Part shown: in pieces, positions 12,347-39,397 of the stretch | Layout: every line of letters starts with the position of its first letter | How positions within the stretch are numbered: position 1 is the first letter of the stretch | Assembly (NCBI RefSeq): GCF_003863335.1 | Contig: NZ_RRAZ01000024.1 | Location: 1-56,637 of the forward strand | Length of the DNA: 56,637 nt | Direction of reading: 5' to 3' | Source: Falsigemmobacter faecalis | GTDB lineage: Bacteria; Pseudomonadota; Alphaproteobacteria; Rhodobacterales; Rhodobacteraceae | Notes under the pieces: model-generated | What the model was told of the DNA's origin: nothing | The model's database searches: none | What the model saw: only the letters and a program-made list of their open reading frames with translations | Made by a program: the position numbers and the translations under genes

Positions 12347-12359
12347 CGGTTCTGTCCCG

Positions 12360-15218: not shown

Positions 15219-15252
15219 AAGCGTCCCCTCTCCTGCAGCCCGTAAGCGCCGG

Positions 15253-20862: not shown

Positions 20863-22248
20863 ATGGCACGCTATCACATTGATCTGGGCGGACATCGCCA
20901 CGCTTTTCCGGATCTGGCGGATCTCATGGCCAAAGCCACGCCGCGCAGATCCGGCGATGAGCTGGCGGGCGTGGCGGCGCGGGACGCCGAAGAGCGGGTG
21001 GCCGCGCAGATCCGGCTGGCCGATCTGCCGCTGAAGACCTTTCTCACCGAAGCGCTGATCCCCTATGAGCGCGATGAGATCACCCGGCTGATCATGGACA
21101 GCCATGATACGGCCGCCTTTGCGCCGGTCTCCTCGCTGACGGTGGGGGGGCTGCGCGACTGGCTGCTGTCGGATCTGGCAAGCCCGCAGGCGCTGGCCGC
21201 GCTGTCCCCTGGGCTGACGCCGGAAATGGTGGCCGCAACCGCCAAGATCTGCCGCAACCAGGACCTGATCCTGATTGCCGCCAAATGCGAGGTGGTCACC
21301 CGCTTTCGCAATACCCTGGGCCTGAGGGGGCGGCTTTCGACCCGGCTGCAGCCCAATCACCCGACCGATGACCCCCGCGGCATCGCGGCCTCGGTGCTTG
21401 ACGGGCTGATGTATGGCAGCGGTGATGCGGTGATCGGCATCAACCCCGCCACTGACAGCCCCGGGGCCACGGCAAAGCTGCTGCACCTGCTTGATGAAGC
21501 GATCTCGCGCCATGAGATCCCCACGCAGAGCTGCGTTCTGGCCCATATCACCACCTCGATAGAGCTGATCTCGCGCAATGTGCCGGTGGATCTGGTCTTT
21601 CAGTCGGTGGCCGGGACCGAGGCCGCCAACCGCTCTTTCGGCATCGATCTGGCGCTGCTGCGCGAGGGCCGTGAGGCGGCACTGTCGCTCAACCGCGGCA
21701 CGCTGGGGCAAAATGTGATGTATCTCGAAACCGGCCAGGGCTCGGCGCTTTCCGCCGGGGCGCATCACGGCTGCGATCAGCAGACGCTGGAGACGCGGGC
21801 CTATGCAGTCGCCCGCATGGTTGAGCCGCTTTTGGTTAACACCGTCGTCGGCTTTATCGGACCGGAATATCTATACGATGGCAAACAGATCCTCCGCGCG
21901 GGGCTGGAGGATCACTTCTGCGCCAAGCTCTTAGGCCTGCCGATGGGCTGTGATATCTGCCACACCAATCATGCGGAGGCCGATCAGAATGATATGGATG
22001 ATCTGCTGACGCTGCTTGGCGTGGCGGGGGTCAATTTCATCATGGGAATCCCCGGATCGGATGATGTGATGCTGAACTATCAGACCACCTCGTTTCATGA
22101 CGCGCTGTATCTGCGCCGGGTCCTGGGTAAAGACCCCGCGCCGGAGTTTCAGGACTGGCTTTTGGCAAAGGGCATCGCAGCAGCGGACGGCCCCGGACGG
22201 CTGGCTGACAGCGCGCCACAGCTTCTTTTGCCGGGGCTTGCCCCATGA
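20863..22248 (+). CDS. eutB: Ethanolamine ammonia-lyase large subunit
   Basis: This 461-residue protein matches EutB over its full length. Recognisable blocks include [17 protein letters not shown] near the start, [18 protein letters not shown], and [20 protein letters not shown]. Further on come [29 protein letters not shown] and [14 protein letters not shown]. The C-terminal segment [26 protein letters not shown] is near residue 365. With EutC it performs the adenosylcobalamin-dependent conversion of ethanolamine to acetaldehyde and ammonia. AGGAGG lies six bases from the ATG. Its stop overlaps the eutC start by four bases. No microcompartment, EutA reactivase, ethanolamine permease or acetaldehyde dehydrogenase gene is nearby, so this is a minimal system. 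Confidence 0.97.
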
Positions 22249-22967
22249 GCGGGCTGCGCCCCGATCCCTGGCAGGGGCTGCGCCAGCTGACGCCCGCGCG
22301 CATTGCGCTCGGCCGCAGCCTGCCCACGGCAGAGCATCTGCGGTTTCAGCTCGATCACGCCCGCGCGCGCCGCGCCGTCCATTATCCGCTACCTGCCGCG
22401 CAGATGGAACAGGACCTGGCAGGTTTAGGGCCGCCGGTGCTGCGGCTGCACTCTGCCGCGCCGGACCGGAGTGTTTATCTGCAGCGCCCGGATCTGGGCC
22501 GCAGGCTCAGTGAAGCCTCCGCCGCGCGGCTGACGCCGGGGGAGTACGATCTGGCGCTGGTGGTGGCGGACGGGCTCTCTGCTCTCGCCATTGAGGCCAA
22601 TGCAGCGGCCTTTCTGCAGTCCTTTCTCGGTCATCCCGCCATGGCGGGTCTGCGCATCGCCCCGCTGACGCTGGTGGAACAGGGGCGCGTGGCCATCGGC
22701 GATGAGATCGCCCACCGGCTCGGCGCCCGCCAGGTCGCCGTGCTGATCGGCGAACGCCCGGGGCTCTCTTCGCCCGACAGTATGGGGATCTATTTCACCC
22801 ATGCGCCCCGGCCTGGGCTGACGGATGAGGCGCGCAACTGCCTGTCCAACATCCGCGCCGCAGGTCAGAGCGTGCAGGATGCCGCCGCACGGCTGGCCTG
22901 GCTTTCGGTCAATGCGCGGGTGCGGGGTCTCTCCGGGGTCGCGCTGAAGCTGGAGGCTCTGCTCTGA
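22245..22967 (+). CDS. eutC: Ethanolamine ammonia-lyase small subunit
   Basis: This 240-residue protein has the EutC signature regions [20 protein letters not shown] at residues 13-32, and [14 protein letters not shown]. It also has [20 protein letters not shown] and the C-terminal [14 protein letters not shown]. It binds part of the adenosylcobalamin cofactor and completes the EutBC active site. It starts at an ATG overlapping the eutB stop (ATGA), so the two subunits are translationally coupled. A strong terminator follows 50 bases downstream, which ends the eutBC transcript. Confidence 0.96.
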
Positions 22968-23017
22968 GCGCGCGCACCTGACCGAAGCTGCGCCAGAATA
23001 GCCCGCCCTGACACCAA

Positions 23018-23049
23018 ACACCCCCGACCGCTAACGGTCGGGGGTGTTT
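23018..23049 (+). terminator. Rho-independent terminator after eutBC
   Basis: The sequence from 23018 forms a long perfect stem, AAACACCCCCGACCG / CGGTCGGGGGTGTTT, with a tetraloop of CTAA, followed by a short T-containing tail. It lies between eutC and the next operon and isolates them transcriptionally. Confidence 0.88.
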
Positions 23050-23148: not shown

Positions 23149-23206
23149 ATGCAAAATTGCATACAGCTTCTGCCGGATTTTTGCACAAAGACTGCATGCA
23201 TTGCAG
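23149..23206. promoter_or_regulatory. Two dyad operators upstream of the biuret-type operon (candidate GntR/FCD sites)
   Basis: A perfect inverted repeat, ATGCAA-AA-TTGCAT, lies at 23149-23162. A second dyad, CTGCA-TGCAT-TGCAG, follows at 23192-23206, about 40 bases later. They sit in the 342-base leader of the operon, 190-240 bases before the binding-protein ATG. FCD-type GntR regulators bind short palindromes of this TTG(N)CAA-like kind, and a gene for one lies inside the operon (31760-32443). Autoregulation through these sites is inferred. The rest of the leader shows no clear gene. Confidence 0.45.
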
Positions 23207-23391
23207 GAATTTCCATCTTCGCCTTGCAGCCGCGTTTTTTCCTGCGGGCGTCAGCTTGCCCGTTCCGCTGCCCGGGCAGAAAGCTCGGGAAGTAGCCTAT
23301 CCGCTTATCAGTGACTGCCCCCTCCCCCCGACCGCTCAGGCCTGACGGCTTTTGCGGACCGGTCCAGAATTGCCTGAAGAACGGACCAGAT

Positions 23392-25011
23392 ATGACCTTT
23401 TCCATGACCCGCCGTGCGCTTTTGCTCGCCCAGCTTGCCCTCGGCCTCAGCGCCTTCGCCTTTCCCGCCCATGCCGATGCCGATGCCCGCAAAGACATTC
23501 TGGTCGTTGTCGGCGAACAGGGGCCGAACTCGCTCGACACGCTGACGCCGACCGCCAATGACTACACCCGCTTCGTCGCCTGGCATGCCTATGACCGCCT
23601 GGTCTCCTTTGGCACCAAAGTGAATGCCGATGGCGTTAAGACCTACGACAAAGACACCATCACGCCCGAGCTTGCCGAAAGCTGGGACGTGATCGACGGC
23701 GGCAAAGCCTATATCTTCCACCTGCGCAAAGACGCGACCTTCCACGATGGCTCGCCGGTGGAGGCAAAGGACGTCAAATGGTCCTTTGACCGCGCCCTGG
23801 CCGCAGGCGGCTTTCCGCAGATCCAGATGGATGCAGGCTCGCTTTCGTCCCCCGATCAGTTTGAAGTGATCGACAGCCATACCTTCAAAGTCTCGGTGCC
23901 CGATGGCAATAAACTGGCGCTGCCTGATCTCGGCGTGCCGATCCCGATCGTCCTCAACGCGGACCTCGCGCTGTCACATGCGACGGCTGAGGACCCCTGG
24001 GCCAATGCCTGGCTGGCCAATAACACCGCCGGCGGCGGCGCTTATAAGGTGATCAAATTCACCCCCGGCAGCGAGCTGATCTTTGAGCGTTTTGACGACT
24101 GGAAGAACGGCCCCGTCCCGGCGATGAAGCGGGTGATCTACCGCCAGATCTCCTCGGCGGGCACCCGCCGCGCGCTGCTGGAAAAAGGCGATGCGGATGT
24201 CTCGCTGGGCCTGCCGCCGAAGGATTTTGCCGAAATCGCGCAGGACGACCGCCTCAAAGTGATTGGCGTGCCGAAACAATCCTCGCTGGTCGGCCTTGAG
24301 CTGAACCTGAAAGATGAGCACTTCTCGAACCCGAAGGTGCGCGAGGCCGTGGCTTACGCGATCCCCTATCAGGACATCATCGACAAAGCCTGGCATGGCC
24401 GCGCCAAAGGCATGTTCGGCGCCGATCCGGCGGCAGGCTATGAGGCTTCCTGGCCGGTGAAATCGCCCTATTACACCGATCTCGACAAAGCCAAAGCGCT
24501 GCTGACCGAAGCGGGCTACCCGGAAGGCTTCACAACCAACCTTTTTTTCGATCTGAGCAACTCGACCATCTATGAGCCGGCGCTGCTGCTGATCCAGGAA
24601 AACCTGGCCAAAATCGGTATCACCTCAGAGGTGGAGAAAGTCCCGGGCGCGAACTGGATCGCGCGTCTGCTGGACAAGAAGATGCCCGCTGTCTTTACCG
24701 GCTTCTTCGCCTGGCTCGATTATGCCGATTACCACTTTTACTGGACTTATCACGGCGGCAACAATTCGGTCTTCAACACCTCCGGCTATCAATCGGCTGA
24801 GTTTGACGCGCTGATCGATCAAGCCCGGTTTGAAACCGATACCGCCGCCTATGAGGCGCAGCTGAAAGAGGCCATCGCGCTGGCGATGAAAGATCTGCCG
24901 AAGATCCCGATCGCCCAGGATTTCCACGATGTGGCCTTCCAGAAGAACATCGACGGCTATGAGTATTGGTTCAATTCACATCTGAACCTGCGCACGCTCG
25001 TGAAAAACTGA
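23392..25011 (+). CDS. ABC transporter solute-binding protein (SBP_bac_5) of the ureido-compound operon
   Basis: This 539-residue periplasmic protein has a signal peptide (TRRALLLAQLALGLSAFAF, cleavage after PAHA, near residue 28). It then has family-5 blocks: LAESWDVIDGGKAYIFHLRKDATFHDGSPVEAKDVKWSFDR, GGGAYKVIKF, and VREAVAYAIPYQDII. The longer frame adds 27 residues without a signal-like start, so ATG 23392 (or 23404) is preferred. It is the first gene of the operon and is followed 46 bases later by two cysteine hydrolases, then the cognate permeases and ATPases. Its location with biuret- and allophanate-type hydrolases implies that it captures a small nitrogen-rich ureido or amide compound. 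Confidence 0.92.
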   Translation: MTFSMTRRALLLAQLALGLSAFAFPAHADADARKDILVVVGEQGPNSLDTLTPTANDYTRFVAWHAYDRLVSFGTKVNADGVKTYDKDTITPELAESWDVIDGGKAYIFHLRKDATFHDGSPVEAKDVKWSFDRALAAGGFPQIQMDAGSLSSPDQFEVIDSHTFKVSVPDGNKLALPDLGVPIPIVLNADLALSHATAEDPWANAWLANNTAGGGAYKVIKFTPGSELIFERFDDWKNGPVPAMKRVIYRQISSAGTRRALLEKGDADVSLGLPPKDFAEIAQDDRLKVIGVPKQSSLVGLELNLKDEHFSNPKVREAVAYAIPYQDIIDKAWHGRAKGMFGADPAAGYEASWPVKSPYYTDLDKAKALLTEAGYPEGFTTNLFFDLSNSTIYEPALLLIQENLAKIGITSEVEKVPGANWIARLLDKKMPAVFTGFFAWLDYADYHFYWTYHGGNNSVFNTSGYQSAEFDALIDQARFETDTAAYEAQLKEAIALAMKDLPKIPIAQDFHDVAFQKNIDGYEYWFNSHLNLRTLVKN

Positions 25012-25056
25012 CGCCTGCCGCATCCCCCCCTTGAGACGACCCTGAGGAGCATCGCC

Positions 25057-25740
25057 ATGCAGCGATATGTCGACGGCCTTTATCCCTGGCCCTTTGACGG
25101 CAACCTGAAGCCCGAAAACACCGCGATCCTGGTGATCGACATGCAGATTGATTTCTGCGCCGAAGGGGGATGGGTGCATTCATGCGGTGTGGATCTGGCC
25201 AATACCCGCCGCCCCATCGCGCCTTTGCAAAAACTGCTGCCCGCCTTGCGGGCGGCAGGCTACACGGTGATCTATACCCGTGAAGGTCATAAACCCGATC
25301 TTTCCGACCTGCCCGCCAACAAGCGCTGGCGCTCGCGGCAGCTGACCGGCAGGGGTCTGGGAGATATGGGGCCTTTGGGCCGTTTTCTGGTCCGGGGCGA
25401 GCCGAACTGGGACATCATTCCTGAGCTTGCGCCGGAACCGGGCGATCTGATGATCGACAAGCCCGGCAAGGGCTCTTTCATGGCCACCGATCTTGATGAG
25501 GTGCTGCAGCGGCGCGGCATCCGCAACCTGATGCTCTGCGGCGTGACCACCGACTGCTGCGTGCAGTCCACCCTGCGCGATGCCAATGACCGCGGCTATG
25601 AATGCGTGATGCTCGAAGACTGCTGCGGCTGCGCCGATCATCAAAACCACCTCGATCAGGTTGAGATGATGCGGATCATGGGCGGGCATTACGGCTCGGT
25701 CTGCGCCTCGACCGATGTTCTCAAAACGCTGGAGGCCTGA
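25057..25740 (+). CDS. Isochorismatase-fold cysteine hydrolase, biuret/triuret hydrolase-like (copy 1)
   Basis: The 227-residue protein belongs to the cysteine-hydrolase (isochorismatase-like) family. The catalytic triad is visible as Asp28 (VIDMQIDF), Lys135 (IDKPGKGSF) and Cys168 (GVTTDCCVQST). The N-terminal YPWPFDG and the block THREE-like REGHKPDLSDLPANKRWRS resemble characterised biuret amidohydrolase (BiuH) and triuret hydrolase (TrtA) rather than true isochorismatases. It would hydrolyse an amide C-N bond through a cysteine thioester in the cytoplasm. It is followed three bases later by a paralogue sharing about half its residues. The pairing inside an operon with allophanate hydrolase suggests sequential steps such as triuret to biuret to allophanate. 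Ureidoacrylate hydrolase RutB-like activity is an alternative. Confidence 0.85.
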   Translation: MQRYVDGLYPWPFDGNLKPENTAILVIDMQIDFCAEGGWVHSCGVDLANTRRPIAPLQKLLPALRAAGYTVIYTREGHKPDLSDLPANKRWRSRQLTGRGLGDMGPLGRFLVRGEPNWDIIPELAPEPGDLMIDKPGKGSFMATDLDEVLQRRGIRNLMLCGVTTDCCVQSTLRDANDRGYECVMLEDCCGCADHQNHLDQVEMMRIMGGHYGSVCASTDVLKTLEA

Positions 25741-25743
25741 GCC

Positions 25744-26436
25744 ATGACCGCAACCGCTTTCCCTCAGGTCGCCTCTCAGCCCTATGCCTGGCCCTTTGAC
25801 GGCGGCTTCAGCCCCGCAGAGACCGCGCTGATCCTTATCGATATGCAGATCGATTTCGTCGGGGCTGAGGGCTGGTGCGCGCAGTCGGGCGGGGATGTAA
25901 GCCGCATGGCCGCCGCCGTCGCCCCCACCAGAGCGGTGCTGGAGAAGATGCGTGAAAAAGGCTTCACCATCATTCACACCCGCGAAGGTCACCGCGAAGA
26001 TCTGGCCGATCTCAACCCCAACAAGCGCTGGCGCTCGGCACGGCTTGGCGCGGAAATCGGCGCAAGCGGCCCGCATGGCCGGATGCTGACCCGCGGCGCG
26101 CCGGGCTGGGATATTGTGCCCGAGCTTTACCCCGCCGCCGGTGAGCCCATCATCGACAAGCCCGGCAAAGGTGCTTTCTGGGCCACCGATCTTGAACATA
26201 TCCTGCGCGTGCGCGGCATCCGCAATCTGATCTTTACCGGCGTCACCACGGATTGCTGCGTGCATACCACCATGCGCGATGCCAATGACCGTGGCTTTGA
26301 ATGCATGCTGCTGGAAGACTGCTGCAATGCCACGCTGCAGAAAAACCACGAGACCATTTTGCGCATCACCAAAATGGGCCACGGCATTTTCGGCACGGTG
26401 GCCAGGTCTGACGATCTTCTGGCAGCACTGGCATAA
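25744..26436 (+). CDS. Isochorismatase-fold cysteine hydrolase, biuret hydrolase-like (copy 2)
   Basis: The 230-residue paralogue of the preceding gene has triad Asp33 (LIDMQIDF), Lys139 (IDKPGKGAF) and Cys172 (GVTTDCCVHTT). The spacing of 106 and 139 residues from Asp to Lys and Cys matches what I recall for biuret hydrolase; copy 1 has one extra residue. Conserved features shared with BiuH-like enzymes include YAWPFDG, REGHREDLADLNPNKRWRS, RGAPGWDIVPELYP and DANDRGFECMLLEDCC. The likely reaction is biuret to allophanate plus ammonia, feeding the allophanate hydrolase encoded at the end of the operon. It lies three bases after copy 1 and six before the first permease gene, so all are co-transcribed. 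Which copy acts on which substrate cannot be told from sequence. Confidence 0.86.
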   Translation: MTATAFPQVASQPYAWPFDGGFSPAETALILIDMQIDFVGAEGWCAQSGGDVSRMAAAVAPTRAVLEKMREKGFTIIHTREGHREDLADLNPNKRWRSARLGAEIGASGPHGRMLTRGAPGWDIVPELYPAAGEPIIDKPGKGAFWATDLEHILRVRGIRNLIFTGVTTDCCVHTTMRDANDRGFECMLLEDCCNATLQKNHETILRITKMGHGIFGTVARSDDLLAALA

Positions 26437-26441
26437 CGGTC

Positions 26442-27455
26442 ATGACAGGCTTCATCCTGAAACGTCTGGCCAGTGCGGTCCCCTCGCTTTTCGGGGTGAT
26501 GGTGCTGACCTTTGTGGTCTCCCGGGCGATGCCGGGGGATCCGGCGGCCTTTTTCGCCGGACCCGCCGCCACGCCTGAATCCATCGCCCGGGTGCGCGCG
26601 CAGCTGGGCTTTGATCAGCCCATCGTGTGGCAGTTCCTCGATTATATCACCGACCTTCTGCACGGCGATCTGGGCCTGAGCTTTGCCTCGGGCCAGCCGG
26701 TGCTGGACGATCTGATGCGCCGCCTGCCCGCCTCGATGGAGCTGACGCTGCTGGCGCTGGTCATCGCGCTGGCGGTGGCGCTGCCGATGGGCATTCTGGC
26801 CGCCGTAAAGCCCGGAACCTGGATCGACCATATCTGCCGCGGCTCGACCACCCTGGCGGCGGCGCTGCCGTCGTTTTTCATCGGGCTTTTGCTGATCTAT
26901 GTCTTTTACTTCCGTCTCGGCTGGGCGCCTTCGCCCATCGGGCGGCTGGAGATCTGGTATTCTTCGCCTGCGGAAGTGACCGGATTTTACACCATCGACG
27001 CCCTTCTGGAGGGCAATTTTGAGACCTTCCGCGCGGCCGCCGCGCAGCTGGTGCTTCCGGCGCTGTCGCTGTCGCTCTTTGCGCTGGCCCCGCTGGCGCG
27101 GATGACCCGGGCCTCGATGCTCGGGGTGCTGAATGCGGAATTCATCACCACCGCCACCGCCCTTGGTCTTTCGCGCCGCACGATCCTGATCAATTACGCG
27201 CTGCGCAACGCCATGATGCCCATGATCAATATCATCGGCATGGTCTTTTCCTTCCTGCTCGGCGCCAATGTGCTGATTGAGCAGGTCTATGGCTGGCCAG
27301 GCATCGGCTCTTATGCAGTCGAGGCGGTCTTGATCTCAGATTATGCCGCGATCCAGGGCTTCGTGGTGATAATGGCGGTGATCTATATCCTGCTCAATCT
27401 CATCATCGACATTACCAATACCATCATCGATCCGAGGGTGAGCCATGACGCGTGA
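26442..27455 (+). CDS. ABC transporter permease (DppB-like) of the ureido-compound operon
   Basis: This 337-residue membrane protein has an N-terminal helix (RLASAVPSLFGVMVLTFVV) and the DppB landmark SRAMPGDPAAFFAG. Further hydrophobic segments follow. The EAA-like loop is TATALGLSRRTILINYALRN near residue 240, then EQVYGWPGIGSYAVEAVLISD. The protein is slightly longer than usual because of a periplasmic insertion around SSPAEVTGFYTIDALLEGNF. It begins six bases after the second hydrolase and overlaps the next permease gene by 11 bases. Confidence 0.93.
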   Translation: MTGFILKRLASAVPSLFGVMVLTFVVSRAMPGDPAAFFAGPAATPESIARVRAQLGFDQPIVWQFLDYITDLLHGDLGLSFASGQPVLDDLMRRLPASMELTLLALVIALAVALPMGILAAVKPGTWIDHICRGSTTLAAALPSFFIGLLLIYVFYFRLGWAPSPIGRLEIWYSSPAEVTGFYTIDALLEGNFETFRAAAAQLVLPALSLSLFALAPLARMTRASMLGVLNAEFITTATALGLSRRTILINYALRNAMMPMINIIGMVFSFLLGANVLIEQVYGWPGIGSYAVEAVLISDYAAIQGFVVIMAVIYILLNLIIDITNTIIDPRVSHDA

Positions 27456-28323
27456 TCTCTCTCAGAAGCGGCCCTCGGGGCTGCGGCGGGTGGCCGGGAA
27501 CCTGGCCTTCATTCTGAAGCAAAGCCCGCTCACCCTCTTTGCTGCGCTGATCTTTGCCGGCCTCGTCTTTGTGGCGATCTTTGGCCCCTGGGTGGTGCCC
27601 TATGGCCCGCTCGAAAGCTCAGCCAATACGCTGCAGCCGCCAGGCCTGCAGCATCTCTTTGGCACCGATCATCTGGGCCGCGATATCTTCTCGCGCACCC
27701 TGGTGGCGGCGCGGATTGACCTCGGCATCGCGGTGGCGGCTGTCGCGATGTCCTTTGCAGGCGGTCTGATCCTGGGCGCCATCGCAGGCTATTGGGGCGG
27801 CTGGACCGACCGCATTCTGGGGCGGCTGTCAGATACCATCATGGCCTTCCCGCTGTTCGTGCTGGCCATGGGGGTGGTGGCCGCCCTTGGCAATTCGATC
27901 TGGAACATCATCCTGGCGACGGCCATCATCAACCTGCCCTTCTACATGCGCTTTGCGCGCTCTGAGGTGAACGCGCGGCTGGGTGCCGGCTATGTGGAGG
28001 CCGCGCGGCTGACCGGCAACAGCCGGATGCAGGTCCTGTGCCTGCATATCATCCCCAATATCCTGCCGCCGATGATGGTGCAGATCTCGCTGAACCTTGG
28101 CTGGGCCATTCTGAACGCGGCGGGTCTGTCGTTCATTGGTCTCGGCGTGCGGCCACCGACCCCGGAGTGGGGGATCATGGTCTCGGAAGGGGCGCAGTAC
28201 ATCATCTCGGGCGAATGGTGGCTTTTCTTCTTCCCCGGACTCGCACTGGTGCTGGCGGTCTTTTCCTTCAACCTGCTGGGCGATGGTCTGCGCGACCTGC
28301 TCGATCCGAAAGGGCGTGAATGA
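27445..28323 (+). CDS. ABC transporter permease (DppC-like) of the ureido-compound operon
   Basis: The 292-residue permease has the DppC hallmark LFGTDHLGRDIFSRTLVAAR near residue 72 and about six membrane helices. The EAA loop is EAARLTGNSRMQVLCLHIIPN near residue 172, followed by LSFIGLGVRPPTPEWGIMVSEG. Together with the preceding DppB-like protein it forms the channel. The start lies inside the end of the preceding gene, and the stop overlaps the following ATPase start as ATGA, so translation is coupled on both sides. Confidence 0.93.
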   Translation: MTRDLSQKRPSGLRRVAGNLAFILKQSPLTLFAALIFAGLVFVAIFGPWVVPYGPLESSANTLQPPGLQHLFGTDHLGRDIFSRTLVAARIDLGIAVAAVAMSFAGGLILGAIAGYWGGWTDRILGRLSDTIMAFPLFVLAMGVVAALGNSIWNIILATAIINLPFYMRFARSEVNARLGAGYVEAARLTGNSRMQVLCLHIIPNILPPMMVQISLNLGWAILNAAGLSFIGLGVRPPTPEWGIMVSEGAQYIISGEWWLFFFPGLALVLAVFSFNLLGDGLRDLLDPKGRE

Positions 28324-29333
28324 TGCCGAGGGCTGCCGATGTTCCGATCATTGAGGTCGAGGATCTGAATGTGCGCTTCCGCACCCGCGAGGGGCTGCTG
28401 CATGTTCTTGAAAACGTAAGCTTCTCACTGCGCCGGGGCGAGACCATGGGCATGGTCGGGGAAAGCGGCTCAGGCAAATCGGTTTCCGCCTATGCGCTGA
28501 CGCGGCTTTTGCCGAAAACCGCCGATGTTCAGGCCGGAACGATGCGCGTGGCGGGGCTCGATTATCTGAGCGCGCCGAAGGCGGATATTGAGGCGCTGCG
28601 CGGCAAGACCATCTCGATGATCTTTCAAAACGCCCGCGCCGCGCTGAACCCGATCCGCCGGATCGGCGATCAGATCGCCGATGTGCTGCACCGCCACTCG
28701 GGCCTGACACGCAAAGACGCCCGTGAAGCGGCCGTGCAGGCCCTGGCAGAGGTGAAAATCCCTGACCCTGCGGCGCGCTACAAATCCTATCCCTTCCAGC
28801 TGTCCGGCGGCATGTGCCAGCGGGTGATGATCGCCCTTGCCCTCGCCGCCCGGCCCGAGATCCTGATCGCGGATGAGCCGACCACCGGGCTTGATGTGAC
28901 CACCCAGGCCGCCATCATGGATCTGATCCGCGAGAAAGCGGCCTCTGAGCGGATGACCACCCTTCTCATCACCCATGATCTCGCGCTTGCGGCCGATTAC
29001 TGCGACCGCTTTGTGGTGATGCATGCAGGCCATGTCGTGGAAAGCGGCGCGACCGGGCCGATCTTTGCGAGGCCCGCGCATCCCTATACCCGGCGTCTGC
29101 TGAAGGCGACGCCGGACGGAACCTCGGCGCTTTCTGATCTGGAGCCGATCCCCGGCAATCTGCCGGATCTGCGCAAAGCGACCACGCTTTGCCGGTTCGC
29201 CGCGCGCTGCCCGCATTACGCAGCAGATATTTGCGATGTGCCGCAGAAACTGCGCCCCGCCGCAGGGGCTGTCTGGCCCGCGCATCACGTGGCCTGCGCC
29301 CGGGCCGCAGACCTGAATGCAGAGGCTGCCTGA
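28320..29333 (+). CDS. ABC transporter ATP-binding protein (DppD-like) of the ureido-compound operon
   Basis: This 337-residue ATPase has Walker [10 protein letters not shown] near residue 46 and the Q-loop SMIFQNARAALNPIRRI. The signature is LSGGMCQRVMIALAL, Walker B is [14 protein letters not shown], and the switch histidine is in LITHDLAL. A cysteine-containing C-terminal oligopeptide-ATPase tail includes CRFAARCPHYAADIC. Two adjacent ATG codons begin it. Its stop overlaps the next ATPase start by three bases. Confidence 0.93.
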   Translation: MMPRAADVPIIEVEDLNVRFRTREGLLHVLENVSFSLRRGETMGMVGESGSGKSVSAYALTRLLPKTADVQAGTMRVAGLDYLSAPKADIEALRGKTISMIFQNARAALNPIRRIGDQIADVLHRHSGLTRKDAREAAVQALAEVKIPDPAARYKSYPFQLSGGMCQRVMIALALAARPEILIADEPTTGLDVTTQAAIMDLIREKAASERMTTLLITHDLALAADYCDRFVVMHAGHVVESGATGPIFARPAHPYTRRLLKATPDGTSALSDLEPIPGNLPDLRKATTLCRFAARCPHYAADICDVPQKLRPAAGAVWPAHHVACARAADLNAEAA

Positions 29334-30274
29334 TGTCTGATCTTCTGGAACTCACCCGCCTGAAACAGCTCTATCCGGTCAAGGGCGGCCATCTTCATGC
29401 GGTGGACGATGTCTCTTTCTCCATCGGCAAAGGCGAGAGCCTGGGGCTGGTGGGCGAAAGCGGCTGCGGTAAATCCACTCTGGTACGGCTGATTTCCCGC
29501 CTCGTTGACCCGACAGAGGGGGCGATCCTCCTGAACGGGCGCGATATCGCAGGCTGCCCGGCGAAAACCTTTGGTCGTGATGCCGACCGCCGTCGGATCC
29601 AGGTGGTCTTTCAGGACCCGACCGACAGCCTGAACCCGCAGTGGCGGGTGGGGAAATCCATCGCCGATCCGCTGCGCCGTCTGACCAAAGGCATGTCTGA
29701 GGCGGAGATCACCAAAGCGGTGGCGCTGGCCGCAGAGCGCTCGGGCCTGCCGGTGGCGCTGCTGGACCGCTTTCCGCACCAGCTGTCCGGCGGGCAGAAA
29801 GCCCGTGTGGGGATCGCCCGCGCCATCGTGCTGGAGCCGGAGCTGCTGATCCTTGATGAGCCGACCTCGGCGCTCGATGTGTCGGTGCAGGTGCTGATCC
29901 TGAAGCTGCTCGATGATCTGCGCAGCCGCCTCGGCATGAGCTATCTCTTCGTCAGCCATGATCTGAATGTGGTGCGGATGATCTGCGACCGCGTGGCGGT
30001 GATGTATCTCGGCAAGCTGGTCGAAATCGCGCCGACGGAGGCGCTGTTTGAAAACCCGCGCCACCCCTATACCCGCGCGCTTCTCTCCGCCATTCCGGGC
30101 CGCAGCGAGGGGCGCATCACCCTGCAGGGCGATGCCCGCAGCCCGATCAATCCCAATCCTCATGTCTGCCGCTTTTATGGCCGCTGCCCGGTGGGGCAGG
30201 ACCGCTGTGCGCAGTCCGCTCCGCTTTTGACATTCGCGGCGCCGGATCACGGCGCGGCCTGCCATTTTGCCTGA
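29333..30274 (+). CDS. ABC transporter ATP-binding protein (DppF-like) of the ureido-compound operon
   Basis: This 313-residue ATPase has Walker A GESGCGKSTL near residue 41 and the Q-loop VVFQDPTDSLNPQWRVG. The signature is LSGGQKARVGIARAI, Walker B is LLILDEPTSALDVSVQ, and the H-loop is FVSHDLNV. The C-terminal tail has CRFYGRCPVGQDRC. The frame is open another 48 codons upstream, but that part overlaps the preceding ATPase. ATG 29333, overlapping that gene's stop (TGATG), is the natural start. It completes the importer, and the amidase gene begins ten bases after its stop. Confidence 0.93.
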   Translation: MSDLLELTRLKQLYPVKGGHLHAVDDVSFSIGKGESLGLVGESGCGKSTLVRLISRLVDPTEGAILLNGRDIAGCPAKTFGRDADRRRIQVVFQDPTDSLNPQWRVGKSIADPLRRLTKGMSEAEITKAVALAAERSGLPVALLDRFPHQLSGGQKARVGIARAIVLEPELLILDEPTSALDVSVQVLILKLLDDLRSRLGMSYLFVSHDLNVVRMICDRVAVMYLGKLVEIAPTEALFENPRHPYTRALLSAIPGRSEGRITLQGDARSPINPNPHVCRFYGRCPVGQDRCAQSAPLLTFAAPDHGAACHFA

Positions 30275-30284
30275 GGACTGCGTC

Positions 30285-31745
30285 ATGACGCTGAATCACA
30301 AAGACTATTCCAAACTCTCCGCGGCTGAGATCGTTGCTCAGGTGAAGGCGGGCGATATCTCCGCCCGTGACGTAACAGAAGCAGCCCTCGCGCGCATGGC
30401 CCTTGCCGAGCCGCATATCCACGCCTATTGCCACCCGGCCCCCGATCTCGCCCGCGCCATGGCCGATGCGGTGGATGCAAAGATCGCCGCCGGAGAAGAT
30501 CCCGGCCCCCTCGCCGGTGTGCCGGTGGGGATCAAGGATCTGGTCGCCACCAAAGATCTGCCGACCGTGATGGGCTCGAAATACTACCTCGGCTTCATGC
30601 CGGAGGATGACGACATCTCGGTCGCGCGTCTGCGCAAAGCCGGGGCGGTGATCCTTGGCAAAACCAATGTGCCGGAGTTTGGCTATTCCGGCGTCGGCCA
30701 CAACCCGGTCTTTGAGACCGCCCGCAACCCCTGGAACCTGGCCATGACGCCAGGCGGCTCGTCCGCAGGGTCGGCCGCCTCGGTCGTGGCGGGGGTCTCG
30801 CCCTTTGCGATTGCCTCAGACGGCGGCGGCTCGATCCGTATTCCGGCCTCGCTCTCGGGTCTGGTGGGCTTCAAAGCCTCGATGGGGCGGGTGCCGCTTT
30901 GGCCGGGCTGTCGCGATCCGCGGTTTCCGGGGCTGTCAGGCTGGGAGTCGCTGGAGCATATCGGCCCGGTTGCCCGCACGGTGAAAGATGCCGCCCTGAT
31001 GCTTTCGGTCATCTCCGGGCCGGATATGCGCGACCGTCACACCATTCCGCAGGATTTCGACTGGATGGAGGCCTATGAAGAGCCGCTGCCGCGCGGCCTG
31101 AAGATCGCCTTCTCAGAGGATTTCGGCTTTCTGGCCGTCGATCCGGAAGTGCGCCGCCTGGTGCGTGAGGCGGCCTTTGCCTATGCCGAAGCGATCGGGG
31201 CAACGCTCACCGAAGTGGATCCCGGCCACCGCAACCCGCGCGACGCCTTTACCGCGCTGATCATGGCCGAAAGCGATCTGAAGGGCATGCGCGCCATGCT
31301 GTCCGGGCATCCGGAGTATATGTCGCCCCATCTTGCGGCGATGATCTCACGCGACTGGACGGCGGAAGATTTCACCAATGCCAATATGGTCCGCAAGGAA
31401 GTGGTTGAAGCGCATTGGAAACTGATGTCGCAATATGATCTGCTGATCTCGCCGACCCTCGCCGTGCCGGCCTTTCCGGTGCATATGCAGGGGCCCGAGA
31501 AGATCGACGGGCAGATGGTCTCAGGCTTCACCTGGTCGGGCTTTTGCCAGCCGTTCAACTTCACCGGACAACCGGCGGTCTCGCTGCCGGCGGGTCTGAC
31601 GAAAGAGGCGCTGCCCGTGGGTCTGCAGATCGTGGGTCCGCATCTGGGGGATGCGCTGGTGCTGCGCGCGGCGCGTGCCTTTGAAGAGGCGCGCCCCTGG
31701 GCGCATCTGAGCGCACCGCTGGTCGATATGCTCGACCTGGCCTGA
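30285..31745 (+). CDS. Amidase-signature family hydrolase
   Basis: The 486-residue enzyme carries the amidase-signature triad Lys84 (GIKDL), Ser159 (TPGGSSAGSA) and nucleophile Ser183 (DGGGSIRIPAS). The C-terminal segment GQPAVSLPAGLTKEALPVGLQIVG is typical of the family. It hydrolyses a carboxamide. Inside this operon it may release ammonia from the imported compound or from an intermediate such as 1-carboxybiuret, the role of AtzE in cyanuric-acid degradation. AtzE needs the small partner AtzG, and no such gene lies next to it; intergenic gaps here are about 10-14 bases. I chose ATG 30285, which has GAGGA upstream, over an ATG six codons earlier. The true substrate is open. Confidence 0.9.
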   Translation: MTLNHKDYSKLSAAEIVAQVKAGDISARDVTEAALARMALAEPHIHAYCHPAPDLARAMADAVDAKIAAGEDPGPLAGVPVGIKDLVATKDLPTVMGSKYYLGFMPEDDDISVARLRKAGAVILGKTNVPEFGYSGVGHNPVFETARNPWNLAMTPGGSSAGSAASVVAGVSPFAIASDGGGSIRIPASLSGLVGFKASMGRVPLWPGCRDPRFPGLSGWESLEHIGPVARTVKDAALMLSVISGPDMRDRHTIPQDFDWMEAYEEPLPRGLKIAFSEDFGFLAVDPEVRRLVREAAFAYAEAIGATLTEVDPGHRNPRDAFTALIMAESDLKGMRAMLSGHPEYMSPHLAAMISRDWTAEDFTNANMVRKEVVEAHWKLMSQYDLLISPTLAVPAFPVHMQGPEKIDGQMVSGFTWSGFCQPFNFTGQPAVSLPAGLTKEALPVGLQIVGPHLGDALVLRAARAFEEARPWAHLSAPLVDMLDLA

Positions 31746-31759
31746 GGGGATACGCGCAA

Positions 31760-32443
31760 ATGGTCAAAGCAGATCCCGCAAGCAAGGCCCGTGAGCCGAT
31801 GGCCAGCCGCATCGTGCGGGAGCTGACGGAGGCCATTCTGACCGGTCGCCTCGGCTCGGGCGCGCGGCTCGAAGAGACGCTGATCGCTGAGCATTTCGGC
31901 GCGTCCCGCACGCCGGTGCGCGAAGCCCTGCGCGAATTATCCGCGCTTGGGCTGGTTGAGATGGCCCCGCATCGCGGGGCCTCGGTGGCGCGGATCGATG
32001 ACGAAGTGCTGCTCGACCGGTTTGAGGCCATGGCGGAGCTGGAGGCCGTCGCCGGGCGGCTGGCCGCTTTGCGCATCACGCCGGAGGCGGCGCAGGGGCT
32101 GATTGCAGAGGTGGAGGCAGCGGCCTCCCTCGTCGAGGCGGATGATCGTGAGGGCTTTCGCGCCCATAACCGCGCCTTTCACAACGCCATCTATGAGGCC
32201 ACCGGTAACCAAACACTGATCCGGGCCATCCGCCAGGTTCGCATGTCGGTGGCGGTGTTTCGCGCGCGTCAGTTCGATCTCGCCCGCCGCCTCGAAAGCT
32301 CTCATGCCGAGCACCGCGAGATCGCCGCTGCCATCGCCGCAGGCGACGCCGTGAAAGCGGCGGATCTTTTGCGCCACCATCTGCTGATCGTGCGCAAAGC
32401 GGCGGCGCAACATTTGAGACAGACCCGGATCGCCCCCCTGTGA
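31760..32443 (+). CDS. GntR-family transcriptional regulator, FCD (FadR/VanR-type)
   Basis: This 227-residue regulator has an N-terminal winged helix near residues 14-78: RIVRELTEAILTGRLGSG, then LIAEHFGASRTPVREALREL. The FCD ligand-binding domain is all-helical. Its metal- or ligand-binding residues are in the HNRAFHNAIYEATGN region and a later SSHAEHREI histidine region. It is embedded between the two amidase-type genes with a 14-base gap upstream and 25 downstream, so it is co-transcribed with the operon it most likely controls. The palindromes at 23149-23206 are candidate binding sites. The effector is probably a pathway intermediate. Confidence 0.9.
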   Translation: MVKADPASKAREPMASRIVRELTEAILTGRLGSGARLEETLIAEHFGASRTPVREALRELSALGLVEMAPHRGASVARIDDEVLLDRFEAMAELEAVAGRLAALRITPEAAQGLIAEVEAAASLVEADDREGFRAHNRAFHNAIYEATGNQTLIRAIRQVRMSVAVFRARQFDLARRLESSHAEHREIAAAIAAGDAVKAADLLRHHLLIVRKAAAQHLRQTRIAPL

Positions 32444-32468
32444 TCCGGGATGAAAGACAGGAAATTTA

Positions 32469-32891
32469 ATGACTTATCAAGAGATCCTGCTCGCCGTCTG
32501 TGGTGCGCATCTCTCGGGCATGGCGCTTAATCACCAGCTGACCGGGTTGGGGGCAGAGCTGCGCGAGACCACCACCACGGCTGCGGATTATCAGCTTTAT
32601 GCCCTGAACGACCTCGCCCCGCCGCGGCCCGGGCTTCAGCGGGTGGCCGAAGGCACCGGCCATGCGATCGAGGTTGAGATCTGGGCGCTGAGCCCGGCAG
32701 CCTTTGGGGCTTTTGTGGCGGCCATCCCCGTCCCCATGGCCATCGGTATGAACCGGCTGATCGACGGGCGGTGGGTGAAGGGCTTTGTGGCCGAACCCAT
32801 CGCGCTCGGCCAGGCCGAAGACATCAGCAGATCCGGCGGCTGGCGCGGCTATTGCGCGGCCCTCACGCATTCAAACGGAGAGATGAAATGA
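32469..32891 (+). CDS. Stand-alone allophanate hydrolase C-terminal domain (gamma-glutamylcyclotransferase-like)
   Basis: The 140-residue protein corresponds to the C-terminal domain of AtzF/allophanate hydrolase, normally fused behind the amidase domain. Matching features are GMALNHQLTGLGAELRETTTTA at residues 17-38, YQLYALNDLAPPRPGLQRVA and AIEVEIWALSPAAFGAFVAAI. PMAIGMNRLIDGRWVKGFVAEP and GGWRGYCA complete the set. In AtzF-type enzymes this domain helps turn over the N-carboxycarbamate product and shapes the oligomer. Here it is a separate gene located before the amidase, and its stop overlaps the amidase start (ATGA). Production in equal amounts and assembly into a two-subunit enzyme is therefore likely. 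ATG 32469 has AGGAAAT upstream. Confidence 0.87.
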   Translation: MTYQEILLAVCGAHLSGMALNHQLTGLGAELRETTTTAADYQLYALNDLAPPRPGLQRVAEGTGHAIEVEIWALSPAAFGAFVAAIPVPMAIGMNRLIDGRWVKGFVAEPIALGQAEDISRSGGWRGYCAALTHSNGEMK

Positions 32892-34300
32892 CCCTGACCT
32901 GGGACCCCATGACCGGATCGCTGGATCTGGCCACCCTGCGCCGCGCCTTTGACGGCGGCCTGACGCCCACCGCGCTGATCAACGCAGTCTACGACCGCAT
33001 CGAGGCGCGCGGCGAGGATCACGTCTGGATCACCCTTTTCCCCCGCGAAGAAGTCCTCGCCCGCGCGGCGGATCTGGAGGCAAAGGGCCGCTCAGACGAC
33101 CAGCCCTTCTGGGGTCTCCCTTTCGGGGTGAAGGATAACTTCGTGATGAAGGGGGTTCCGGCCTATTCGGCGGTGAAAGCCTGGAAGCACATCCCGCAGG
33201 AGACCTCCTGCACGATCCAAAAGCTGCAGGATCTGGGGGCGATTGCCCTTGGCACCCAGAATATGGACCAGCTGGGGATGGGGCTTGTGGGGGTGCGCAC
33301 GGACTTCGGCATCCCCGCTTCGGTCTTTGACAAGGACTATATCTCAGGCGGCTCAAGCTCCGGGGCGGGCGTCTCGGTTGGCGCGGGGCTTGTCAGCTTT
33401 GCGGCCGCCAATGACGCGGCAGGCTCGGGCCGGGTGCCCCCGGCGCTGAACGCAATTGTCGGCTATAAACCGACACCCGGCCTTGTGCCACGGGCCGGGA
33501 AATCCCCGGCGGGGATGTGCGGCTCGGACAATATGCTGACGCTGAGCGTGGCGGATGCGGTGGAGCTGCACAATGCCTGGTTCACCTGGGACCCGAGTGA
33601 TCCGAACTCAAAGCCCGAGGCGGAGGCCTTCCGCATCACCCTGGCTCCGATCCCGGCAGCGTTCCGCTTTGCGATCCCCGATCAGCAGTCGATCTTCTTT
33701 GATGGCGACGCCGAGGCCGAAAAGCTGTTCCGTCACTCGGTCGAGGTGCTCAAAAGCCTCGGCGGTGAGGCGGTTGAGGTCGATGTCAGCGATTATCTGA
33801 CCGTGGCCCGCATGCTCTATGAAGGGGTCTTCATCGCGCAGCGCCATGCGAATTTCCACCAGCGCTTTGATCAGGACCCTTCGGCGCTGCATCCGGCGAC
33901 CGCAGAGATCCTGTCCTGGGGCGCGAAATGGACCGCGACCGAAGTCTTCAAGCAGATGTACATCGTCAATGCTGCCAAACAAAACTTCCGCAAGCTGTTG
34001 AAAGAGGTGGATTTCCTCGTCACTCCGACCACCCCCACCACCTATACGATTGCCCGGCTGGAAGCCGATAATATTCGCCTGAATGCCAATATGGGCAGCT
34101 ATACGAACTTCGTGAACCTGCTCGATCTGCCCGCCATCTCCGTGCCGGCAGGGCGGCGGCCGGATGGTCTGTCGCTGGGTACCATGCTGATCGGCGGCAC
34201 GCTTGAAGATGAAAAGATCTGCCGCTTCGGCCATGCGCTGCAAAGCGCGATGAATCTGCCGGTCGGCATCACCGGAACGCGCCCGTCAGAGATGATCTGA
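32888..34300 (+). CDS. atzF: Allophanate hydrolase amidase subunit (AtzF N-terminal-type)
   Basis: This 470-residue amidase has triad Lys82 (FGVKDN), Ser156 (YISGGSSSGAG) and nucleophile Ser180 (AAGSGRVPPALN). The AGSGRVP form, the MLYEGVFIAQRHANF segment and the late YTNFVNLLDLPAISVPAG block are specific to the allophanate-hydrolase branch of amidases. The expected reaction is allophanate plus water to N-carboxycarbamate plus ammonia, which then breaks down to CO2 and ammonia. The usual fused C-terminal domain is absent and is encoded by the overlapping gene upstream. The frame is open 39 codons further upstream, but ATG 32888 with GGAGAG before it is clearly right. It ends the operon, and a strong hairpin follows. 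Confidence 0.9.
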   Translation: MTLTWDPMTGSLDLATLRRAFDGGLTPTALINAVYDRIEARGEDHVWITLFPREEVLARAADLEAKGRSDDQPFWGLPFGVKDNFVMKGVPAYSAVKAWKHIPQETSCTIQKLQDLGAIALGTQNMDQLGMGLVGVRTDFGIPASVFDKDYISGGSSSGAGVSVGAGLVSFAAANDAAGSGRVPPALNAIVGYKPTPGLVPRAGKSPAGMCGSDNMLTLSVADAVELHNAWFTWDPSDPNSKPEAEAFRITLAPIPAAFRFAIPDQQSIFFDGDAEAEKLFRHSVEVLKSLGGEAVEVDVSDYLTVARMLYEGVFIAQRHANFHQRFDQDPSALHPATAEILSWGAKWTATEVFKQMYIVNAAKQNFRKLLKEVDFLVTPTTPTTYTIARLEADNIRLNANMGSYTNFVNLLDLPAISVPAGRRPDGLSLGTMLIGGTLEDEKICRFGHALQSAMNLPVGITGTRPSEMI

Positions 34301-34320
34301 CCGCTGCGCAAAGAAAGACA

Positions 34321-34343
34321 GGGCAGAGCCATGGGCTCTGCCC
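34321..34343. terminator. Terminator hairpin between convergent operons
   Basis: A perfect 10-bp stem, GGGCAGAGCC / GGCTCTGCCC, with a three-base loop lies between the amidase stop (34300) and the stop of the convergent alcohol dehydrogenase (34351). It can serve both directions. Confidence 0.7.
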
Positions 34344-34350
34344 GCCTGCA

Positions 34351-35538
34351 TCAGGCCGCGGTCTCAAGGATGCGGATGAAATCTTCCGGGCCGGTGATTT
34401 CACGCGGGTTGGTGCGGCCCCAGATGTCCTGCATGGTATAGTCGGCGATGGTCGCGAAACGCTCGGGCGTCACACCGACAGCCGAGAGCGAGCGCGGCAT
34501 GCCGAGCGAGGTGATGAAGGCGCAGGCCAGATCCCCGGCCGGGGTCCCGGGCGCGCCAAAGGCCGCCGAGATGCGCTTTTGCCGCTCGCCGTTCACTTCC
34601 GCATTCCAGCGCAGCACGAAGGGCGACATCACACAGGAGGTATAGCCATGCGGCACATCGCAAAGCCCGCCCAGCACATGGCCGATGGCATGGCTTGCGC
34701 CCATCGGCACGCCGCCGATGATCGGCAGCATCGACTGCCACACGCCGATCTGGCATTTCAGCCGCGCGTCGAGATCCTGCGGATCGGCTTTCACCCGCGA
34801 CAGCCCCTCAATCAGCAGCCGCAAAGCACTTTCGGCAAGCCCGTCGCAATAATCATTCGAGCGGAAGGACTGCAGCGTCTCAATCGCATGATCAAGCGCG
34901 CGCACCCCGGTCGAGAACCAGAGCCATTCGGGGGTATGCTGCGTCATGGCCGGATCAAGGATGATGCTGACCGGGGCCATCAGGCGGTGCTCATAGCCCT
35001 GCTTATGGCCGGTCTCACGATCCGTCGCGCCCGAGAGCGGGTTGAACTCACCGCCCGAAAGCGTGGTCGGCACGCAGATCGTGCGGATGCTCTGCGGGCG
35101 AAACTCCGGCAGCGCGGTCGGGTTGATCAGCTGGCCTTCGGCATTCACCTGGATATGCAGACGCCCCATATCGGCGGCGGTGCGGATATCATTGGACAGG
35201 CAGATCGGCACGATCTTGGCACAATCCGTGACCGAGCCCCCCCCGACCGAGACGATCAGATCGGCCTTGCAGTCCCGCGCCATCTCGGTCGCTGAGATAA
35301 CATCGGTGCGCGGCCCATGCGGAGCAACCCCGCTGAAGGTCGCGGCATGGCGCGCGCCAAGCGCGGCCTCAATGCGGCTGATTTCATCGGTGCTTTCACG
35401 CAGCGAGGCGCTGGTGATCAGCATCACCCGGTTCGCGCCCAGAAGGGCCGCTTCGGCGGCCAGAGCCTCAGCGGCGGGCTGGCCAAAAATCACCCGCTCG
35501 GTAGCGGTCAGGATAACGGTTCCGGCAGATATGGTCAT
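34351..35538 (-). CDS. Iron-containing alcohol dehydrogenase
   Basis: The 395-residue protein belongs to the group III (iron-type) alcohol dehydrogenase/maleylacetate reductase family. It has the nucleotide-binding stretch DLIVSVGGGSVTDCAK near residue 92. The metal-binding region is WLWFSTGVRALDHAIE, then MGASHAIGHVLGGLCDVPHG, with the conserved histidines around residues 255-275. It would oxidise a primary or hydroxy-acid alcohol, or reduce an aldehyde, with NAD(P). I chose ATG 35538 because GGAGGA lies just upstream; the longer frame adds 12 residues. It is the last gene of a minus-strand operon behind a BVMO and an acyl-CoA ligase. Oxidation of the alcohol released after ester/lactone cleavage is therefore a sensible role. 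Confidence 0.9.
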   Translation of the reverse strand: MTISAGTVILTATERVIFGQPAAEALAAEAALLGANRVMLITSASLRESTDEISRIEAALGARHAATFSGVAPHGPRTDVISATEMARDCKADLIVSVGGGSVTDCAKIVPICLSNDIRTAADMGRLHIQVNAEGQLINPTALPEFRPQSIRTICVPTTLSGGEFNPLSGATDRETGHKQGYEHRLMAPVSIILDPAMTQHTPEWLWFSTGVRALDHAIETLQSFRSNDYCDGLAESALRLLIEGLSRVKADPQDLDARLKCQIGVWQSMLPIIGGVPMGASHAIGHVLGGLCDVPHGYTSCVMSPFVLRWNAEVNGERQKRISAAFGAPGTPAGDLACAFITSLGMPRSLSAVGVTPERFATIADYTMQDIWGRTNPREITGPEDFIRILETAA

Positions 35539-35610
35539 AGAGCTTCCTCCCATGGGTGTAAGACCCGGCCGCACCCCCTCCTCCGGGGCGCGCGGTGGCC
35601 GGGCAGTTGG

Positions 35611-37266: not shown

Positions 37267-37296
37267 GAAGTCCTCCCCAATGGTGTCGGGCGGTGC

Positions 37297-37324
37297 GGGT
37301 CCGGAGTTCTCCTCCGCCGGACCC
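37297..37324 (-). other. Stem-loop in the BVMO-ligase gap
   Basis: Inverted repeats GGGTCCGG / CCGGACCC with a 12-base loop lie between the BVMO stop and the ligase start. It could be an attenuator or mRNA-stabilising structure that sets different expression levels for the two genes. Confidence 0.4.
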
Positions 37325-37338
37325 GGCCGCAGATGGTT

Positions 37339-39282: not shown

Positions 39283-39397
39283 AGGCTTACTTCCTCCCGA
39301 GGATGCGGCGCACCCTCCCGCCCGGATCCGGGCCTTCTCTTTCACAGTCCGTCTCCGGCTTGGTCTTGACCGGCTGCGACTCTGCGGATAGCGTCTG

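Follow-up and report, generated by a model that had tools for sequence, protein, structure and literature searches.

What compound is taken up and broken down by the products of an eleven-gene row in Falsigemmobacter faecalis? The row lies on the plus strand (23392-34300) of a stretch of 56,637 nucleotides, hereafter the window (assembly GCF_003863335.1, contig NZ_RRAZ01000024.1, positions 1-56,637, forward strand), and its reading frames are intact throughout according to the list of open reading frames (ORFs) and family profile searches. It encodes a solute-binding protein (SBP), two adjacent cysteine hydrolases designated H1 and H2, the permeases and ATPases of a Dpp-type importer, an amidase, a GntR/FCD regulator and an allophanate hydrolase split over two genes. 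An earlier note on this DNA had described this tightly packed row and its families, and had proposed that the two hydrolases, both likened to the biuret hydrolase BiuH and the triuret hydrolase TrtA, perform consecutive steps, for example from triuret to biuret and on to allophanate. All of the named parts are present on one strand, and the description of a nitrogen-scavenging operon with two BiuH-derived hydrolases and an importer, ending in allophanate hydrolase, is supported. The triuret-to-biuret sequence is not. H1 and H2 appear to have kept the chemistry of BiuH and lost its means of recognizing biuret, and the reading favored here, with slightly better than even confidence, is that the operon would be a complete uptake and breakdown unit for a biuret-related ureide other than biuret or triuret.

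Both hydrolases possess the Asp-Lys-Cys triad that the earlier note had pointed out, and the triads align with D36, K142 and C175 of BiuH. By sequence, the closest solved protein is the Rhizobium leguminosarum BiuH for H1 and the BiuH of Rhodococcus sp. Mel for H2. An AlphaFold model, made for H1 only (mean predicted local distance difference test score 85.4), matched BiuH 6azn first (template modeling score 0.88, 56% identity) and then TrtA. To compare residues, 191 proteins were grouped by identity with the test columns masked, after removal of two duplicate entries (L123) for proteins of the window, which gave 104 BiuH-like, 74 TrtA-like, 7 other and 6 new rows that are not independent of each other (many, for example, are close Mesorhizobium sequences). 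The six new proteins are the H1 and H2 of three loci, namely the window, a plasmid of Salipiger profundus and an alphaproteobacterial genome designated G688, and outside the masked columns they are 57-63% identical to R. leguminosarum BiuH.

The phylogeny suggested in the earlier note was run with 58 rows, consisting of a random draw of 28 of 102 BiuH-like and 16 of 75 TrtA-like proteins, two solved BiuHs, the six new proteins and six others. It places H1 and H2 near BiuH and outside the TrtA clade, which stands apart with support of 100/99. The H1 trio (100/100) and the H2 trio (100/99) each form a clade, and the branch uniting them (80/84) joins the BiuH rows in a multifurcation separate from TrtA. 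H1 was considered as a TrtA and rejected, since it falls outside that clade and lacks the TrtA residues. Nor does either hydrolase reach the cut-off of the NCBIfam BiuH equivalog NF050097 (370 bits), as the window's hydrolases score 321.7 and 335.2 and the other four members 303.9-340.9. With the same model, four canonical BiuH-like proteins scored 394-415, two TrtA-like proteins 241-253, and two rows from a group with Glu at position 215 scored 294-311. The latter belong to a further BiuH-related group (L107, L108, L109 and L111), 41-52% identical to H1 and H2 and with Tyr or Asn at position 145, which likely has yet another specificity.

The residues that differ from BiuH are concentrated at one end of the active site. 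In the BiuH structure, Gln215 comes from the adjacent subunit and binds the substrate amide that lies farther from the nucleophile, Phe41, Tyr47 and Val174 restrict the pocket, and Val218 together with Gln215 gates the main tunnel (PMC5806882). Asp36, Phe41, Glu84, Lys142, Lys145, Thr171 and Cys175 are kept in all six new proteins. Gln215, present in 104 of 104 BiuH-like and 73 of 74 TrtA-like rows, is found in none of the six, where the position is occupied by Met, Ser or Val across the H1 trio and by Gly in all three H2 proteins. Val174 is equally invariant in the two known groups (104/104 and 74/74) and is Cys in 6/6 new rows. At position 53, all 104 BiuH-like rows have Tyr and all 74 TrtA-like rows Asn, but the new ones have Val, Ser, Gly or Ala; position 47, Tyr in 104/104 BiuH-like rows and Phe in TrtA, is Trp in five of the six; and position 218, Val in BiuH and Ile in TrtA (72 of 74 rows), has changed to His or Leu in five. 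Since the residues of the reactive end are kept in every new protein and those of the distal end are replaced, the chemistry is, as judged from these columns, retained and the recognition end rebuilt, which makes either biuret or triuret a doubtful substrate for H1 and H2. The one TrtA-like row without Gln215 (L112, 9923-10561, minus strand) has Leu at that position and Lys at position 84.

A scheme in which H1 and H2 act consecutively on triuret and biuret, with AtzF finishing, would account for two adjacent BiuH-derived enzymes in the same row as atzF, and canonical trtA-biuH pairs do operate sequentially (PMC7948467). The placement of the Gln and second-shell residues have been pointed to as what distinguishes enzymes for triuret from those for biuret (PMC7948467). 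For H1 and H2 the scheme is very improbable. TrtA residues F35, N41, E160, Y187 and Q202 correspond to BiuH positions 47, 53, 173, 200 and 215, and no new row carries any of them; Phe47, Asn53, Glu173 and Tyr200 occur together in 74/74 TrtA-like rows and 0/6 new ones. Neither protein lies in the TrtA clade, and both lack Gln215.

Alternatively, H1, H2 or both could be biuret hydrolases with a loosened pocket, low-affinity generalists in what would be a plain biuret operon. Their identity to R. leguminosarum BiuH is compatible with this, a natural generalist BiuH exists (RhdBiuH; PMC7948467), and at E<=1e-30 no further BiuH-like protein was found in the genome of the window. RhdBiuH, however, retains Tyr47, Tyr53, Gln215 and Val218, and a specific task is argued for by the presence of two diverged copies, by their separate clades across three loci and by the low ratio of nonsynonymous to synonymous divergence between window and Salipiger. 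In addition, G688 also keeps a canonical BiuH with the full signature, including Gln215, at a separate place (L177), so the new pair is not needed there for biuret. A generalist biuret role is therefore unlikely.

At the other end of the pathway, the AtzF-type domain keeps the catalytic Lys, cis-Ser and Ser, along with the Tyr/Arg pair, eight residues apart, that anchors allophanate in the K. lactis enzyme. The splitting of the allophanate hydrolase into two genes was recognized in the earlier note; to this can be added that the C-terminal domain, AH_C, comes first, which is an unusual order. Among 68 locus rows with AtzF, 59 have the domains fused, five show no AH_C (at least one of which, L157, runs into the locus end), one has them apart with AtzF first, and three have AH_C first, these being the window twice (L180, L185) and Salipiger. 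When each locus is counted once (with the doubles L124/L146, L128/L151 and L129/L149 among the fused rows also merged), 56 of 64 are fused and two have AH_C first. The AtzF equivalog TIGR02713 (511 bits) is a whole-protein model that expects a single protein, and the two genes taken apart score 386.8 and 178.2.

The AH_C domain in the operon is the only copy in the window's genome. Urea amidolyase was rejected as a source of allophanate, as no urea carboxylase scored over the cut-off in this genome; a urease is present elsewhere. A search of the genome for AtzE gave three amidases at E<=1e-60, including the operon's own, none of them over the cut-off (for the operon amidase, 240.7 bits against 425.75 for the NCBIfam AtzE model TIGR02715). 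With the genome's only AH_C in this row and neither urea carboxylase nor AtzE over the cut-off, the allophanate should be supplied by the operon's own pathway.

The importer comprises the complete Dpp set of five components, a family-5 SBP with two permeases and two ATPases, though what it carries is unlikely to be a peptide of the Dpp kind. The SBP scores 109.5 against the DppA model, for which the cut-off is 1005. In DppA, Arg355 and Asp408 are presumably the residues that hold the peptide termini, and in a low-identity alignment with gaps near Arg355 their columns are Glu and Trp in 16 of 16 members of the SBP group. This distinct group has members at E<=1e-100 in 30 of 394 genomes of the family, the window's own included. 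Eighteen of the other 29 neighborhoods were read, ten of them picked because their contig also had a match of BiuH/TrtA type; the presence of hydrolases in 10 of 18 therefore reflects selection and gives no frequency. All 18 (L143-L160) contain DppB-, DppC-, DppD- and DppF-like parts, and 14 have an AtzF of at least 150 bits within 9 kb, which breaks down into 8 of the 10 neighborhoods containing hydrolases and 6 of the 8 lacking biuH- or trtA-type genes in the stretch. Of the remaining four, L156 has an AtzF cut by the locus end, L152 has AH_C only, L158 ends with the contig, and L154 has none.

A Dpp-type importer together with atzF is thus, going by gene neighborhoods, a recurrent unit. The earlier note had regarded a transporter for such a compound as new. 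An importer beside biuret or triuret genes is as such not new, for BMP/Nup-type importers beside biuH and trtA have been published for ammonia-oxidizing bacteria (PMC12625717) and clusters of allophanate hydrolase and atzGEH genes have already been noted to have ABC transporters nearby (PMC6219798). What stands is the narrower point that no published account of a Dpp-type importer adjoining atzF was found in the literature covered, which leaves out most subscription papers.

It could be supposed that one amide is handled by the importer with the amidase and another by H1, H2 and AtzF, as two scavenging units under a single regulator. In plasmids of Agrobacterium pusense and Rhizobium tropici, SBP, DppBCDF and amidase (49-50% identity) occur in 25 kb of sequence that contains neither hydrolases nor AtzF, while G688 has AtzF, H1, H2 and amidase without Dpp genes. 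The amidase, however, occurs in loci of either kind, and importers related to this one stand beside atzF in 14 of the 18 family neighborhoods; these two points tie the importer and AtzF to one pathway and make the division into two units improbable. Dpp- or Opp-type importers were noted at two further loci. On a Terrarubrum flagellatum plasmid (L120, 11908-25013), two SBPs of the group, a Dpp-type importer, one hydrolase, atzF, an atzG-like gene, atzE and hpxZ stand in a row; the hydrolase has TrtA-type residues, yet overall it is equally distant from BiuH and TrtA. The window itself contains a second, separate family-5 SBP with a Dpp/Opp-type importer (11366-16773, minus strand), and the single AH_C of the genome does not adjoin this importer.

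The eleven-gene arrangement is not confined to F. faecalis. All eleven genes have homologues in identical order on the plasmid pTPRO1 of S. profundus JLT2016 (L105), with protein identities of 61-74% for nine of them, 50% for the GntR regulator and 43% for AH_C. Between the amidase and the regulator this plasmid has an insertion, atzG-atzE-hpxZ, which the window is without. In G688 (L176), of the same class, one strand carries a row consisting of AtzF, an SsuA/NMT1-like binding protein, H1, H2 and the amidase; Dpp genes are absent and no AH_C adjoins AtzF there, though the genome has a fused AtzF elsewhere. The core of H1, H2, amidase and AtzF is therefore found in all three loci and the Dpp importer in two. 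Between window and Salipiger, nonsynonymous (dN) and synonymous (dS) divergence are 0.22 and 0.92 for H1 (ratio about 0.24) and 0.19 and 1.07 for H2 (about 0.18), which suggests purifying selection on both genes; of the four comparisons of H1 or H2 with G688, three have saturated synonymous sites. Conservation is lowest in AH_C (dN 0.58, dS 1.27). The same order of eleven genes in Salipiger and the apparent selection on H1 and H2 indicate that the gene row is more than chance.

How widely the pair is distributed was examined at several taxonomic depths. H1 matched at least 589 stretches in genome contigs, and the new residue signature was seen in none of the best 80 loci, which were examined by residue. 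Among plasmids, 1039 records matched H1 and 883 matched H2, of which 40 and 12, respectively, were listed; residues were read row by row for Salipiger, which is by far the best of the matches listed (H1 72%, H2 74%). In the family, 43 of 394 genomes match H2 at E<=1e-30, the window's own included, and residues were read for 19 and a further 10 of the other 42. At E<=1e-93, a threshold unchecked against a protein as distant as the H2 of G688, H2 was found in its own genome only among 390 genomes of the order and 398 of the phylum. In the class, 30 of 385 genomes match H1 at E<=1e-84; among the 15 loci listed, one of them the window's, only G765 and the two matches of G688 were examined by residue. 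The operon is thus genuine and intact, an apparently rare variation on biuret/triuret scavenging, and no published account of the whole variant was found in the same literature, most subscription papers being outside it.

Gene row, families, catalytic residues, loss of distal residues and linkage can be read from the sequence, and from them we infer a class of substrate, an order of steps and a direction of transport. The family-5 SBP with DppBCDF would import the ureide. H1 and H2, derived from a BiuH-type enzyme probably through one duplication, would attack a terminal H2N-CO-NH- group with their Asp-Lys-Cys machinery, and the rebuilt distal pocket would accept a substrate that has no free carbamoyl group at its far end, such as a longer ureide or an N-substituted biuret. 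The latter is the best fit, since a substituent would find room where Gln215 and Tyr53 have been lost. The amidase would remove or split the remaining part to give allophanate or its precursor, and AtzF with AH_C would convert allophanate to ammonia and CO2. In Salipiger, AtzG, AtzE and HpxZ (AtzH) would, judging from their homology with the enzymes described in PMC6219798, additionally process a carboxylated intermediate resembling carboxybiuret.

It is also conceivable, although rather unlikely, that the two hydrolases are obligate partners in a heteromer, the loop of each completing the active site of the other to yield a two-faced enzyme for an N-substituted biuret-type ureide. The possibility arises because Gln215 of BiuH is donated across the dimer interface. 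H1 and H2 are adjacent and in the same order in all three loci, separated by a 3-base gap in the window and overlapping by 4 bases in Salipiger; in G688 there is an overlap when the longest frames are taken. Their loops differ, with Met, Ser or Val at position 215 in H1 and Gly in H2. These facts on adjacency and loops may fit two separate homomers too. In the literature covered, which omits most subscription papers, no published account of a biuret hydrolase heterodimer was found. A heteromer, if real, would mean a new catabolic pathway, complete with a dedicated importer and an allophanate hydrolase in two parts.

Several observations weigh against a ureide other than biuret or triuret, or against a single such substrate. 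One of the six proteins, the H2 of G688, keeps Tyr47, and the window's H2 has Ile at position 218 like TrtA (I205), alone among the new rows. The loop at position 215 varies within the H1 trio itself, and the specificity of these proteins may therefore vary as well. The Gln215Ala variant of BiuH, in which kcat/KM falls from 149742 to 357 s-1 M-1, retains slow turnover of biuret (PMC5806882), and H1 and H2 may by analogy have weak biuret activity. The clade comprises six sequences, drawn from three loci, the sister relation of H1 and H2 is moderately supported, their branch and the BiuH rows meet in a multifurcation, and the H1 of G688 is a long branch. AH_C is only 43% identical between window and Salipiger, and the AtzF at L176 in G688 stands without it. 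Finally, the inserted atzG-atzE-hpxZ means that the window and Salipiger routes are not identical.

Set against known systems, H1 and H2 share with BiuH of R. leguminosarum bv. viciae 3841 (PDB 6azn, 6azo and 6azq) the fold, the triad, Lys145, Glu84, Thr171 and roughly 56-63% identity, and differ in the replacement of Gln215, Tyr53, Val174 and Val218 in 6/6 and of Tyr47 in 5/6, and in scoring below the equivalog cut-off. TrtA of Herbaspirillum sp. BH-1 (PDB 6xix and 6xje) has the same family and triad, and its genes are likewise paired with a BiuH-type gene and atzF, but it belongs to a separate, well-supported clade and differs at positions 47, 53, 173, 200 and 215, with agreement only at Ile218 of the window's H2. 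Canonical biuH-trtA loci with a BMP/Nup-type importer (a Sulfitobacter pontiacus plasmid; ammonia oxidizers, PMC12625717) also combine an importer, two paralogous hydrolases and an allophanate hydrolase. In the annotated S. pontiacus example, an ABC ATPase gene lies between the hydrolases and the SBP is of the BMP family, whereas the window has adjacent hydrolases and a Dpp-type importer. AtzF of Pseudomonas sp. ADP (PDB 4cp8; also 4gyr and 4iss) has the same amidase and C-terminal domains, catalytic residues and Tyr/Arg anchors, which in the window are divided between two genes with the C-terminal domain first. E. coli DppABCDF is likewise a five-component importer with a family-5 SBP, but the window's SBP falls far below the DppA cut-off and is without the terminus-holding residues.

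Annotation by nearest relative would label H1 and H2 biuret hydrolases and imply a pathway for a fertilizer impurity, whereas the residue evidence points to a different ureide, natural or man-made. The six sequences offer a direct test of substrate change in a small, highly specific hydrolase, and the recurrent Dpp-type importers beside atzF are candidate ureide transporters.

The features of the operon are collected in Table 1, with gene coordinates taken from the ORFs and the starts of SBP, DppF and the amidase shifted to an inner ATG. Across the row, gaps are 3-45 bases and overlaps 1-11 bases, and this spacing suggests that the eleven genes form one transcript.

Table 1. Genes of the operon and the hairpin preceding it (positions in the window).
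Feature	Coordinates	Strand	Remarks
Terminator-like hairpin	23016..23049	+	perfect 15-bp arms, 4-nt loop; after eutC; outside operon
SBP, family-5 solute-binding protein (SBP_bac_5)	23392..25011	+	then 45-base gap
H1, isochorismatase-like cysteine hydrolase	25057..25740	+	BiuH-derived; triad kept; Gln215 to Met; then 3-base gap
H2, isochorismatase-like cysteine hydrolase	25744..26436	+	BiuH-derived; triad kept; Gln215 to Gly; then 5-base gap
DppB-like permease	26442..27455	+	then 11-base overlap
DppC-like permease	27445..28323	+	then 4-base overlap
DppD-like ATPase	28320..29333	+	then 1-base overlap
DppF-like ATPase	29333..30274	+	then 10-base gap
Amidase-signature enzyme (Ami)	30285..31745	+	then 14-base gap
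GntR/FCD transcriptional regulator	31760..32443	+	then 25-base gap
AH_C, allophanate hydrolase C-terminal domain	32469..32891	+	separate gene 5' of amidase domain; then 4-base overlap
AtzF-type amidase domain of allophanate hydrolase	32888..34300	+	Ser-cisSer-Lys and Tyr/Arg anchors kept

The start of the operon is placed 3' of the hairpin because the latter probably ends the unit of eutB and eutC (ethanolamine ammonia-lyase; 20863-22967, plus strand), which lies 5' of the operon. EutBC was rejected as part of the operon, given the hairpin between them and its absence from the 28.7 kb of annotated sequence that surround the operon in Salipiger. Upstream of the SBP gene, no inverted repeat common to the window and Salipiger was seen. 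Directly 3' of the operon, on the minus strand (34351-39345), are genes for an iron-type alcohol dehydrogenase, an acyl-CoA ligase-like enzyme and a flavin monooxygenase, the last of which is a distant match to a Baeyer-Villiger-type enzyme.

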